From Falsiroseomonas bella (GTDB lineage Bacteria > Pseudomonadota > Alphaproteobacteria > Acetobacterales > Acetobacteraceae): a stretch of 64,000 nt of DNA. The stretch covers positions 496,001 to 560,000 of the forward strand of contig NZ_QGNA01000001.1 in NCBI RefSeq assembly GCF_003173615.1. The letters run 5' to 3'. The notes under the pieces are model-generated. The model was not told the DNA's origin and did not search any database. It saw only the letters and a list, made by a program, of their open reading frames with translations. This document shows positions 18,348 through 31,742 of the stretch, one piece after another. Made by a program: the position numbers and the translations under genes. Numbering within the stretch: position 1 is the stretch's first letter; each line of letters opens with the position of its first letter.

Positions 18348-19154
18348 ATGGACGGGATGATGGTGACGGGCAGCGAGAAGATGCTCGCCCGGAAGGCCGA
18401 CGGCATCGGCTGGATGATCTTCAACAACCCCGAGCGGCACAACGCCGTCTCGATGGAGATGTGGCAGGCGGCCGAGCGCATCCTGACCGACTTCACCAAC
18501 GACGATGCGGTGCGCGTGGTGATCGTGACCGGCGCAGGCGGTCGCGCCTTCGTCTCCGGTGCCGACATCTCGAAGTTCGAGAGCGAGCGCGCGAGCGAGG
18601 AGGCGGTGGCCGCCTACCAGACGCAGACCAAGAAGGTCTACGACCTGCTGGCCGACCTGCCGAAGCCGACCATCGCGATGATCCAGGGCCACTGCATCGG
18701 CGGCGGCACCGCGCTCGCCGTCACCTGCGACCTGCGCATCTGCGGCGAGACGGCGAGCTTCGGGGTGCCCGCGGCGAAGCTTGGCCTCGGCTACCCGATC
18801 GAGGGCATCCGCCGCCTGGTGGATATCGTCGGCCCGAGCTTCGCGAAGGAGATCTTCTTCACCGCCAAGAAGTGGGGCTCCGAGGATGCGCGCATCATGG
18901 GGCTGGTGAACCGCGTGGTGCCCAACGAGGAGCTGGAGGCCTTCGTGATTGACTATGCGAAGACCATCGCCTCCAACGCGCCGCTGACGGTCGCCAGCGT
19001 GAAGGTGATCGTGCGCGAGGCGCTGAAGGATCGCGGCGCGGCGGACGAGGCGCTGTGCGACGCCTGGGTGAAGCGCTGCTTCGCCAGCGAGGACTACATC
19101 GAGGGCCGCCGCGCCTTCATGGAAAAGCGCCCGCCGCAGTTCAAGGGGCGCTGA
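18348..19154 (+). CDS. Enoyl-CoA hydratase/isomerase family protein
   Basis: A 268-residue crotonase-fold protein. The oxyanion-hole segments are [14 protein letters not shown] near 65-78 and [18 protein letters not shown] near 111-128; the acidic residue expected at the second catalytic position is in YPIEGIRRL (Glu near 150), and no obvious first catalytic Glu occupies the usual place, so it may be an isomerase, a hydrolase or a lyase instead of a hydratase. GAGGAGAC provides the ribosome site. It is the partner of the CoA-transferase upstream and should act on its CoA-ester product. Its 3' end overlaps the convergent ABC ATPase gene by 14 bp. Confidence 0.9.
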
Positions 19155-20103
19155 GCTCCTCCGGGCGCAGCGCGCCCGGGAAATGGCAGGCGACACGCTG
19201 GCCGGGGGCGACCTCGGCCAGCTTCGGTTCCTCCGCCGCGCAGCGCGCAACGGCCCGCGGGCATCGCGTGCGGAAGCGGCAGCCGCTCGGCGGATCGGCC
19301 GGGCTCGGCACCTCTCCCTTCAGCACGATGCGCGTGCGCCGCTCGCCGCCGGGTTCCGCCGCGGCGGAGAGCAGCGCCTGGGTGTAGGGATGCTGCGGCG
19401 TGGCGAACAGCGCCTCGCGCGGCGCCTCCTCCACGATGCGGCCGAGATACATCACCGCCACGCGCGGGGCCATGTGCCGCACCGCCGCGAGGTTGTGGCT
19501 GACGAACAGGCAGGCGAGCCCGAGCCGCGACTGCAGCTCCCGCAGCAGGTTCAGCACCTGCGCCTGGATCGAGACGTCCAGCGCGCTCGTCGGCTCGTCG
19601 CAGACCAGGAAGGCGGGCTCGGTCGCCAGCGCGCGGGCGATGGCGATGCGCTGGCGCTGGCCGCCGCTGAACTCGTGCGGGTAGCGCTCGGCATGGTCCG
19701 GCAGCAGGCCGACCGTGCCGAGCAACTCCGCCACGCGCGCGCGGCGGAACGCGCCGTCGCCCGTGCCGTGCACGACCATCGGCTCCGCCACCAGGTCGCG
19801 CACCGTCATGCGTGGGTTGAGGCTGCCGAAGGGGTCCTGGAACACCACGCCCATGTCGCGGCGCAGCGCGCGCATGGCGCGGTCCGGCAGATGCGTGATG
19901 TCGGCGCCGCGGAACAGCAGCGTGCCGGCGTCGGGCTCGATGAGCCGTATCAGCAGCCGCGCGAGGGTGGACTTGCCGCAGCCGGACTCGCCGACGAGGC
20001 CGAGCGTTTCGCCCGGCCCGATCGCCAGATCCACGCCATCCACGGCGCGCACGCCGCCGGCGAAGACCTTGCCGAGCGCACGGGCCTCGACGAGCGCGCT
20101 CAC
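19141..20103 (-). CDS. Oligopeptide/dipeptide ABC transporter ATP-binding protein (DppF-like)
   Basis: A 320-residue ATPase. Walker A is GESGCGKST near 38-46, the Q-loop is [10 protein letters not shown], the signature is [15 protein letters not shown], Walker B is [11 protein letters not shown] and the H-switch is SHNL. After the ATPase core an oligo_HPY domain follows, with [10 protein letters not shown] and the cysteine-rich [15 protein letters not shown], which ligates an iron-sulfur cluster in some relatives. The start codon is GTG and overlaps the stop of the upstream ATPase (GTGA). It is the last gene of a five-gene import operon and powers uptake together with the DppD-like subunit. 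Confidence 0.95.
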
Positions 20104-29863: not shown

Positions 29864-30996
29864 CGGATGTGCTCGTAGCCGGCGCCGGGCCGGTCGGGCT
29901 GACGCTCGCGCTGGCGCTGCACCGGCGCGGCGTGGCGGTGCGCGTATTGGAGAAGCGCGCCGAACTCTCCACCGCCTCCCGCGCATCCACCTTCCATCCG
30001 CCGACGCTGGAGGCGCTGGACGAGCTCGGCGTGTTCGCCGCGCTGCGGCCCGGCGGCGTGCAGGTGGACCGCATCCTCTGGCGCAGGGTGGACAGCGGCG
30101 AGGGCGCGATCCTCGACCTCGGCATCCTGAAGGGGGAGACACGCTTCCCCTTCCGCTGGCACCGCGAGCAGCAGTTTCTGACGCCCGCGCTGCTCGCCGC
30201 GCTGCCCGCGGGCACCGTGCGCTTCCATGCGGGCATCTCGGCGCTGGCGCAGGACGAGCGCGGCGTCGCAGTCACTTGCGAGGACGGCAGCACGCATCGC
30301 GCCCGCTACCTCATCGGCTGCGACGGCTCCTCCGGGGCGGTGCGTGGGCTGGCGGGCATCGCGACGGAGACAAGCGACTACGCGCACCGCGTGCTGCGGC
30401 TGCTGACGCCGCTCGACCTGCGCGACCACGTGCCGGGGCTGGACGGGCTCGGCTACCTCTACGACGCGTCGGGATCCTGCTCGCTCCTGCGCATGCCGCA
30501 GGTCTGGCGCGTGATCCTGCGCGTCCCGCCGACGATGACCGATGACGAAGCGCTCTCGGAGGGTCACGCGCGCGCGCAGCTCGCGCGCTTCCTGCCGCAG
30601 GTGGGGGGCATGCCGATCGACGGGCGCGACGTCTATGGCGTACGCAAGGCGATGGCGGTGGGCTATCGCGCCGGCCGCGTGCTGCTGGCGGGCGATGCCG
30701 CGCATCTCACCAACACGCGCGGTGGCATGAACATGAATGCCGGCATCCACGATGCGATGACGCTGGCAGCGACGTTGCGCCGCGTCCTCGATGGCGGCGG
30801 CGAGGCGCTGCTGGACGCCTGGGCGGATGCGCGGCTGGGCACGGTGCGGAACGCCCTGCTGCCACGCACCGATGCGCGCGTGGCGGCGGCCCCCTCGGGC
30901 GAGGTCGCGCGCATGGCGGCGCTGGCGCCCGATCAGCAGCGCGCCTGGGCGCGGGAGGCGAGCATGCTGGACATCGCGAAGGTGGGCGCGCCGTGA
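29860..30996 (+). CDS. FAD-dependent monooxygenase (PHBH/UbiH type)
   Basis: A 378-residue group A flavoprotein monooxygenase. It shows VAGAGPVGLTLALALHRRG near residues 6-24 (GxGxxG), the DG fingerprint YLIGCDGSSGAVR near 148-160 and the second FAD motif GRVLLAGDAAHLTNTRGG near 270-287. Such enzymes hydroxylate aromatic or heteroaromatic acids, or perform Baeyer-Villiger-like steps, using NAD(P)H and O2. It is translationally coupled to the PrpD-like gene upstream (ATGA) and to the racemase-fold gene downstream (GTGA). Its presence implies that the pathway includes an oxygenase step. The substrate is unknown. Confidence 0.92.
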   Translation: MTDVLVAGAGPVGLTLALALHRRGVAVRVLEKRAELSTASRASTFHPPTLEALDELGVFAALRPGGVQVDRILWRRVDSGEGAILDLGILKGETRFPFRWHREQQFLTPALLAALPAGTVRFHAGISALAQDERGVAVTCEDGSTHRARYLIGCDGSSGAVRGLAGIATETSDYAHRVLRLLTPLDLRDHVPGLDGLGYLYDASGSCSLLRMPQVWRVILRVPPTMTDDEALSEGHARAQLARFLPQVGGMPIDGRDVYGVRKAMAVGYRAGRVLLAGDAAHLTNTRGGMNMNAGIHDAMTLAATLRRVLDGGGEALLDAWADARLGTVRNALLPRTDARVAAAPSGEVARMAALAPDQQRAWAREASMLDIAKVGAP

Positions 30997-31742
30997 TCCA
31001 CCCGCCCCGCCGCTGGCATCCCACGCACCGCGTCGGGCTGCTCTCGCCCTCCGCCAATCCGGCCGTGGAGCCGGAGATGCGCCACCTTCTGCCGCATCAG
31101 GCGGCGCTGCATGTCGCGCGGCTTCCGGTGATGCCGAACACCACGCTCGAGCAGCGCAACGCTGCCTATCCCGCCCATGTCGAGACCGCTCTCGGCGCCT
31201 TCGGCGCGCTGGCGCTGGATGCGGTGATAGTCGGCCTCACCGGGCCGAGCTACGCGCTGCCGCCGCAAGAGGACCAGGCCCTGCAGGACCGGCTCTCGGC
31301 TGGCGCCGGCCGCCCGGTGATCCTTGCCGCCCGCGCCATCGCGGAGGCGCTGGCGGCGCTGGGGCGCACGCGGCTGCTGCTGTTCTCGCCTTATCCGGGC
31401 TGGCTGACGGAGCGCGCCGAGCGCTACTGGTCGGAGGCGGGGCTCGACCTGGTCCAATCCTTCAAGGTCTCGGACACGTTCCGCGCCTATGACCTGACAC
31501 CGGAAGAAGTGGCCGACGGCCTCGCGAAGCTCTCCCCGTCGCCGGATTGCGCCGTGCTGATCTCGGGCACCGGCGCGGCGACGCTGGACGCGATGGAATG
31601 GATGCGGGCGCGGCTCGGCGTGCCGCTGCTCTCATCGAACATCGCCTGCGCCTTCGCCGCCTGCCGCAGGCTGGACCTGCCGGCGAGCGAGGCGATGCGG
31701 TCCTGCTGCCCGGACCTGGCGGGGCAACTCCCCCGCCCATAG
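30993..31742 (+). CDS. Maleate isomerase/arylmalonate decarboxylase family protein (Asp/Glu racemase fold)
   Basis: A 249-residue protein starting at GTG 30993, overlapping the monooxygenase stop. RVGLLSPSANPAVEPEM near 13-29 matches the N-terminal signature of maleate cis-trans isomerases and arylmalonate decarboxylases, and the second half-site appears as PLLSSNIACAFAACRRL near 213-230. At the place of the first catalytic Cys the sequence reads IVGLTGPSYALP, with no cysteine. In the known enzymes the presence of one or two cysteines separates decarboxylase from isomerase or racemase activity, so this may be a decarboxylase-like variant. It ends the catabolic operon; its stop codon lies in a hairpin. 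Confidence 0.82.
   Translation: MIHPPRRWHPTHRVGLLSPSANPAVEPEMRHLLPHQAALHVARLPVMPNTTLEQRNAAYPAHVETALGAFGALALDAVIVGLTGPSYALPPQEDQALQDRLSAGAGRPVILAARAIAEALAALGRTRLLLFSPYPGWLTERAERYWSEAGLDLVQSFKVSDTFRAYDLTPEEVADGLAKLSPSPDCAVLISGTGAATLDAMEWMRARLGVPLLSSNIACAFAACRRLDLPASEAMRSCCPDLAGQLPRP

Follow-up and report, generated by a model that had tools for sequence, protein, structure and literature searches.

A catabolic operon of Falsiroseomonas bella that is very probably a composite of two units found apart in its relatives

Introduction

Does a run of overlapping catabolic genes encode one pathway, or can it join units that occur separately in related genomes? This question is raised by a locus of Falsiroseomonas bella (Acetobacteraceae; host genome size, 5.9 Mb) within a window of 64,000 nucleotides (NZ_QGNA01000001.1, positions 496,001 to 560,000; coordinates below are those of the window), in which the five genes of a peptide-type importer face seven plus-strand genes, encoding a zinc deacylase, a class II aldolase, a pyridoxal phosphate (PLP) enzyme, a TctC solute-binding protein, an MmgE/PrpD-family protein, a flavin monooxygenase (FMO) and a racemase-fold protein with the maleate-isomerase fold, here labelled AMD. 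A first-pass annotation had placed the locus at 19141..31742 and read it as a single degradation pathway for an N-acylated amino acid or peptide-like compound. A description of this gene set was not found in the open-access literature searched, which is weak evidence of absence. Our comparison of related genomes argues, with high confidence, that the locus is a composite of two units found apart in relatives.

Results

The locus was compared across 15 genomes of the genus and 299 of the family, with one genome per species; CaiB was searched in all 15 genus genomes and its flanks were then compared gene by gene, the loci compared being those picked from best matches and the genes being called by a simple G+C-position rule and checked with blast. 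A unit that is unbroken in relatives consists of a GntR/FCD regulator and, divergent from it, CaiB-ECH-TctC-MmgE-FMO-AMD. In the window this unit is split. On one side lie the regulator (16177-17055, minus strand; Pfam GntR and FCD) and two core genes for a CaiB/BaiF class III coenzyme A (CoA)-transferase (17109-18335, plus; Pfam CoA_transf_3, 400 bits) and an enoyl-CoA hydratase/isomerase (ECH; 18348-19154, plus; Pfam ECH_1; NCBIfam PRK06127, 377.7 bits, cut-off 291). On the other side lies module C, comprising TctC (27624-28604; Pfam TctC, 181 bits), MmgE/PrpD (28601-29863; both Pfam domains, N and C), FMO (29860-30996; PHBH fold, Pfam FAD_binding_3, 168 bits) and AMD (30993-31742; Pfam Amdase), all on the plus strand. 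Between the two are the PLP gene (26297-27598, plus; Pfam D-ser_dehydrat) and module B, which contains, on the minus strand, the importer genes DppF (19141-20103) and DppD (20100-21053; Pfam ABC_tran/oligo_HPY twice), DppC (21050-21964) and DppB (21924-22874; Pfam BPD_transp_1 twice) and DppA (22881-24422; Pfam SBP_bac_5), and, on the plus strand, the DoeB-like zinc deacylase of the AstE/AspA family (24502-25500, GTG start; Pfam AstE/AspA, 136.8 bits in a scan that used an over-long 5' end starting at 24175) and the class II aldolase/adducin-fold enzyme (25536-26300; Pfam Aldolase_II, 137 bits).

A CaiB orthologue is present in all 15 genus genomes and GntR stands at the locus in 14 of them, the exception being G010, whose 7.6-kb contig showed none. 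Both units are joined in four genomes (the window's own, G000, together with G007, G005 and G014), unbroken in the window's own genome and G007 (loci L006 and L091); in G005 and G014 the composite order is traceable up to TctC, where the contigs end, with MmgE-FMO-AMD on a separate contig in G005 and AMD alone seen, at a contig end, in G014. In five other genomes (G001, G002, G003, G008 and G009), TctC-MmgE-FMO-AMD comes immediately after CaiB-ECH, and the importer, deacylase, aldolase and PLP genes are all absent from this place. G011 carries CaiB-ECH-PLP, followed by the same small protein and PrfC as lie behind the locus in the window, and CaiB-ECH occurs alone in the last five (G004, G006, G012, G013 and, within its 7.6-kb contig, G010). 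The composite order was not seen outside the genus; conservation of the gene order thus proved largely confined to close strains, an outcome that the first-pass annotation had itself named as one that would refute its reading.

The importer-deacylase-aldolase unit is likewise found by itself. Deacylase matches at E ≤1e-40 occur in 62 of the 299 family genomes and reach at least 69% identity in 12, the window's own included; nine of these (G009, G325, G162, G232, G321, G212, G083, G088 and G134; deacylases 69-84% identical) are without the composite. At all nine stand-alone loci the deacylase has a divergent DppA-type gene and an adjoining class II aldolase, six loci having all five importer genes (L104 and L107 are short contigs), and no PLP gene, MmgE, FMO or AMD at 38% identity or more was found in the stretches examined there. 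G009 holds both units apart, importer-deacylase-aldolase on contig C11 and CaiB-ECH-TctC-MmgE-FMO-AMD on C35, each at least 17 kb from the contig ends. Eight of the 299 genomes combine a deacylase that is at least 69% identical with an AMD that is at least 40% identical, and the window's genome alone has both on the same contig; two of the eight, G005 and G014, have contigs that end inside the locus. Because the importer-deacylase-aldolase unit is separable, the seven-gene run appears to be a composite and not the one pathway first proposed, the two halves of which occur apart, once within one genome.

At remoter deacylases, M81 metallopeptidase and mandelate-racemase-type genes lie alongside on Cereibacter and Martelella plasmids. 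In the stand-alone locus of G232 (L103 6495-7696), the place of the two permease genes between DppD and DppA is taken by a DppB fragment and a further copy (66% identical) of the class II aldolase gene.

At the level of gene structure the first-pass annotation largely stood. The importer and the seven facing genes are all intact open reading frames with 79 bp between them (24423-24501, between DppA and the deacylase), their family names are matched by Pfam, and all twelve are real genes, since their orthologues in G005, G007 and G014, where seen, are 82-97% identical. Across the seven plus-strand genes the junctions are, in order, 35 (deacylase-aldolase), -4, 25 (PLP-TctC), -4, -4 and -4 bp; four of the six are thus 4-bp overlaps, and none is the 2-bp junction that the first-pass annotation had also allowed for. 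These overlaps suggest co-transcription in this strain. The limits given earlier enclosed the right genes but missed GntR, CaiB and ECH upstream, which are part of the same locus, ECH and DppF overlapping tail to tail by 14 bp. The name Dpp-type holds for the importer at family level (SBP_bac_5) but not beyond, as DppA scores 44.8 bits against the model for true DppA (NCBIfam NF043070, cut-off 1005). The reading as a catabolic locus that pairs a peptide-type importer with a DoeB-related zinc deacylase is supported. Five near relatives have a counterpart of the 79-bp divergent control region that measures about 72-84 bp, against 113-134 bp in six remoter ones (starts set by homology), and the motif GATGCTA is present in the window and all five near relatives. 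No match to the sigma-70 consensus was found in this region, and a promoter and terminator scan, uninformative at such G+C content, found none.

For the PLP enzyme, C-C cleavage of the D-threonine aldolase kind had been proposed. Its best PDB match is the D-serine deaminase 3gwq (311 bits, or 500 with a family profile, over nearly full length); it scores 79 bits against D-threonine aldolase 7dib, 67 against BhcC 6qkb and 82 against the NCBIfam BhcC model (cut-off 690), at which score the beta-hydroxyaspartate cycle was rejected. In a profile alignment, the His347-x-Asp349 metal site of the D-threonine aldolase AxDTA (4v15) aligns with H405-P-C407 of the PLP enzyme, and the catalytic base His193 with a glutamate (E219). 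H405-P-C407, E219 and the PLP lysine K86 are invariant in all nine sequences compared, of which eight are 41-90% identical to the window's, and 3gwq has the same His-x-Cys site and PLP lysine. In the AxDTA paper (PMC4401734), D-serine dehydratase and the 3LLX protein are described as holding the metal by His and Cys and as having no His193. With His-x-Cys instead of His-x-Asp and Glu instead of the His base, the enzyme probably acts by beta-elimination on a D-serine-like amino acid and not by aldol cleavage. In two other Acetobacteraceae, G018 and G034 (L088 9456-12535; L089 8160-10927), a D-serine-dehydratase-type gene stands beside a gene for an M81 (MlrC-like) metallopeptidase (Pfam for G018 only).

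AMD has the fold of the maleate isomerase / Asp-Glu racemase superfamily, and isomerisation or decarboxylation as known for this fold had been expected of it; both cysteine sites are empty. None of the 120 proteins listed, the window's included, has a cysteine in residues 80-90 or 187-198; at the sites of the two cysteines the family loops read a near-invariant TGPSY and an invariant GTG, and a cysteine at 186, just ahead of the second loop, occurs in 74 of the 120. The second loop of AMD itself reads SGTG, with no cysteine, and presumably pairs with Cys188 of arylmalonate decarboxylase; against the NCBIfam model for that enzyme AMD scores 39.9 bits (cut-off 225). Cys188 is the sole proton donor of arylmalonate decarboxylase according to PMC4996985. 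In a wider set of 21 AMD proteins the second site is glycine in all 21 and the first is cysteine in three, namely those of L095, L096 and L097 (Streptomyces, Roseomonas haemaphysalidis and Nonomuraea), which stand half-way between the classical racemases and the cysteine-less branch. Where public names are given to this subfamily, they are maleate isomerase or arylmalonate decarboxylase; the subfamily thus looks mis-named, as the residues that the named reactions need are missing. A phylum-wide search at E ≤1e-32 returned AMD in one of 398 genomes, the window's own, and so added no gene settings beyond it. Both residue-level corrections, that the PLP enzyme is not aldolase-like and that AMD has no cysteine sites, are probably sound.

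A frequent neighbour of AMD is FMO, whose best PDB matches are PnpA (6ain, 112 bits) and HspB (7da9, 99.5 bits) and in which GxGxxG, DG and GD, the flavin adenine dinucleotide motifs of a group A flavin monooxygenase, can be read in the alignment. AMD matches of at least 40% identity in 14 family genomes were taken further. FMO directly adjoins AMD at 13 of 17 genome loci, the window counted, lies about 3 kb away at one (L124) and was not seen near it at three (L122, at a contig end; L130 and L131, with an internal stop in AMD). Nine of the 17 loci fall within the genus; among the other eight, the genes adjoin in five and are within 3 kb of each other in one. MmgE/PrpD at 50% identity or more occurs at 11 of 21 AMD loci, again counting the window.

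Of 25 plasmid records matched by AMD, six were examined; four of the plasmid loci (L094-L097) were chosen since an FMO search (20 of 635 records listed) matched the same record, and they therefore show the spread of FMO with AMD and cannot measure how constant the pairing is. FMO and AMD are adjacent in Shinella, Streptomyces and Nonomuraea and about 3 kb apart in R. haemaphysalidis. On the Microvirga and Haloarcula plasmids (AMD 29-32% identical) no such FMO is annotated beside AMD, which counts against a universal pairing in the wider family; the distant racemase-fold gene of Haloarcula (L133 4337-8711) lies directly behind two hydantoinase/oxoprolinase genes.

The plasmid settings vary. On the Shinella plasmid (L094 526-10705), FMO and AMD are accompanied by aconitase, amidohydrolase, isochorismatase and phosphoenolpyruvate (PEP)-mutase/isocitrate-lyase-type genes; on that of R. 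haemaphysalidis (L134 153-18953) they are found with isochorismatase-type genes and an amidohydrolase, and LeuC/LeuD-type genes lie about 9 kb away. PEP-mutase/oxaloacetate-decarboxylase-type genes are also among the neighbours in these two plasmids. Both gene sets resemble a pathway acting on substituted maleates or maleimides. A common theme is suggested, in which flavin oxidation to an unsaturated diacid or its amide would be followed by an AMD step and then by hydration or dehydration by an aconitase-type or MmgE/PrpD enzyme. No aconitase- or MmgE-type helper was seen by eye near FMO and AMD in the family genomes L126 and L127. On a linear Streptomyces plasmid (L095 9983-18789), FMO and AMD have as neighbours another Asp/Glu racemase gene, hemB, hemA, an acetate-CoA ligase gene and hemL; this looks like a biosynthetic cluster that uses aminolevulinate, and the hem-gene setting is outside what the diacid theme explains.

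The other enzymes are placed at family level. The deacylase scores 302.6 bits against the DoeB model TIGR02994 (cut-off 402.7), 359 against 3cdx and 262 against DoeB 6twl, with which its zinc ligands HxxE and H align. The class II aldolase has its best match in 3ocr (104 bits), with which its histidines HxH and H, which have a metal role, align in part. Vitamin B6 degradation combines a class II decarboxylase with a ring-cleaving flavin enzyme; this candidate was dropped, as the class II protein reaches only 28 bits against Mlr6791 (2z7b). The MmgE/PrpD protein scores 39 bits against the PrpD equivalog TIGR02330 (cut-off 458).

Beside the core locus lies a tripartite carboxylate importer on the minus strand, with TctA (13315-14802; Pfam TctA, 504 bits), TctB (14806-15276; Pfam TctB, 55 bits) and an upstream TctC (15273-16247; assigned by position and homology to genus loci). 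In four genus genomes these genes beside GntR-CaiB are swapped for a TAXI-type binding protein and a permease of 676-677 residues (L117 2161-5313; L118-L120), matched by Pfam NMT1_3 and DctM in G001 and read by eye as similar reading frames in G002, G003 and G008. Beyond the operon, before PrfC, are another TctC (32260-33225, minus) and a ketopantoate-reductase-type gene (33322-34290, plus). In G007 (L091 8353-12406), IclR, DapA-type and mandelate-racemase-type genes separate AMD from the small protein and TctC downstream; in G005 (L092 15395-15700), a DUF1330 gene lies between the PLP gene and TctC.

Discussion

Our comparison suggests that TctC-MmgE-FMO-AMD, once read behind CaiB-ECH, would now be read behind the divergent importer/deacylase promoter, thereby joining two once-separate routes, one for the uptake, hydrolysis and deamination of N-acyl amino acids and one for flavin-dependent acid breakdown. 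In the tentative and rather doubtful chemical route that we assign to this composite, a small N-acyl compound of peptide-like kind would enter through the importer, the zinc deacylase would cut the amide, and the PLP enzyme would deaminate the D-serine-like (beta-hydroxy) amino acid by beta-elimination, with the class II aldolase cleaving or decarboxylating a metal-bound hydroxy acid. FMO would oxidise the unsaturated or aromatic acid, the cysteine-less AMD and MmgE/PrpD would work on the resulting unsaturated diacid, and CaiB and ECH would pass the product on as a CoA thioester. Among the NCBIfam models, CaiB comes nearest to the dicarboxylate succinate-glutarate and mesaconate types, though its scores (313 of 750 and 269 of 700 bits) stay far below their cut-offs; a dicarboxylate product would agree with this. 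As a whole, we hold the combination of composite origin, residue corrections and chemical route to be the best explanation, with some reserve.

Several points weigh against this explanation. The composite genomes fall near G009 and G011 in a CaiB+ECH tree whose support is weak at the relevant nodes (41-64), so that gene loss in G011 and G009 is possible; the direction of insertion follows from parsimony only, and an inverted-repeat search at three boundaries for an insertion scar showed nothing striking. The separability of the two units stands under either gain or loss. The 4-bp overlap of the aldolase and PLP genes indicates a well-settled join, and by this stage both units may work in a single pathway. 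Three distant FMO-linked relatives of AMD retain the first cysteine, and the double loss is therefore not general to FMO-linked members. The steps given to MmgE/PrpD and the aldolase follow from family alone, and the composite reading as such draws on sequence.

Among the alternatives, capture of a promoter by two units with no common substrate has a real though minority chance: each unit is found apart in other genomes, both are unlinked in G009 and CaiB-ECH remain on the old promoter side, but the order is retained, within contig limits, in four species-level genomes, and the gaps are short, with one module junction overlapping. A single linear pathway, running from import and deacylation of an N-acyl beta-hydroxy amino acid through PLP aldol cleavage to an acid part that is oxidised and isomerised or decarboxylated, would account for the tight spacing over all seven genes, the DoeB-type deacylase and the retention of order in four genomes; it is improbable given that the modules also occur apart, that the PLP enzyme is without the metal and base residues of an aldolase and that the racemase-fold protein has no cysteines.

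A nicotine/nicotinate-type route, with FMO acting as HspB, AMD as the maleate isomerase Iso and fumarate as end product, draws on HspB being the second-best PDB match of FMO, on Iso of P. putida S16 being closest to the AMD model and on the isochorismatase-type genes at the Shinella and R. haemaphysalidis loci; we regard it as quite improbable, with both cysteines missing from AMD, neither a dihydroxypyridine dioxygenase nor an isochorismatase-type amidase found in the scan of the locus genes, and an FMO likeness at family level only. A variant ectoine/hydroxyectoine degradation cluster, with a DoeB-like deacetylase and an EutA-like protein, was rejected and is very improbable: the deacylase score against DoeB and the 46.8 bits of AMD against EutA (cut-off 318), which had spoken for it, are both below cut-off, no EutB- or EutC-type gene is among the locus genes scanned, and the best match to ectoine hydrolase EutD/DoeA in the genome reaches 56.4 bits (cut-off 613), 14 control genomes likewise having sub-cut-off matches only.

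Under the composite origin that we prefer, the locus is a clear example from nature of two catabolic units that have fused into one overlapping operon while each still occurs separately elsewhere, so that shared substrate and promoter capture become testable in close genomes, and the frequent flavin-enzyme neighbour offers a handle on the true substrate of the apparently mis-named AMD subfamily. A bolder reading, which we consider rather unlikely, is that FMO and AMD form an undescribed two-enzyme oxidative cassette in Pseudomonadota and Actinomycetota. As all AMD members examined are without the second cysteine, and those of the alphaproteobacterial branch that includes the window's AMD also without the first, the reaction in that branch would proceed without cysteine proton transfer; captured by the importer/deacylase/D-serine-dehydratase module, the cassette would give a new pathway for amides in which a serine-like amino acid is linked to an oxidisable acid.

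Set against known systems, the PLP enzyme shares the His-x-Cys metal site and PLP lysine of the Zn-dependent D-serine dehydratases of the fold-type III PLP family (3gwq; chicken 3anu), its relatives outside the genus being 36-49% identical to it and D-serine activity being predicted; in contrast, both the His-x-Asp site and the His base of D-threonine aldolase and the hydroxyaspartate aldolase BhcC are missing. Like the N-acetyl-diaminobutyrate deacetylase DoeB/EutE, the deacylase belongs to the AstE/AspA family with aligned zinc ligands, but it stays under the DoeB cut-off in a genome that has no ectoine hydrolase over cut-off. The MmgE/PrpD protein has both Pfam domains and weak PDB matches in common with 2-methylcitrate dehydratase PrpD and IDS-epimerase, and differs from PrpD by its low equivalog score. 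AMD shares the superfamily fold of maleate cis-trans isomerase (4fq7, 2xed) and arylmalonate decarboxylase, yet carries no cysteine at either site. FMO, a single domain of 378 residues, has the PHBH-type FAD_binding_3 fold of PnpA and HspB, but matches them at only 100-112 bits and has AMD as its usual neighbour. Compared with these systems, the operon is a new arrangement built from known enzyme kinds.

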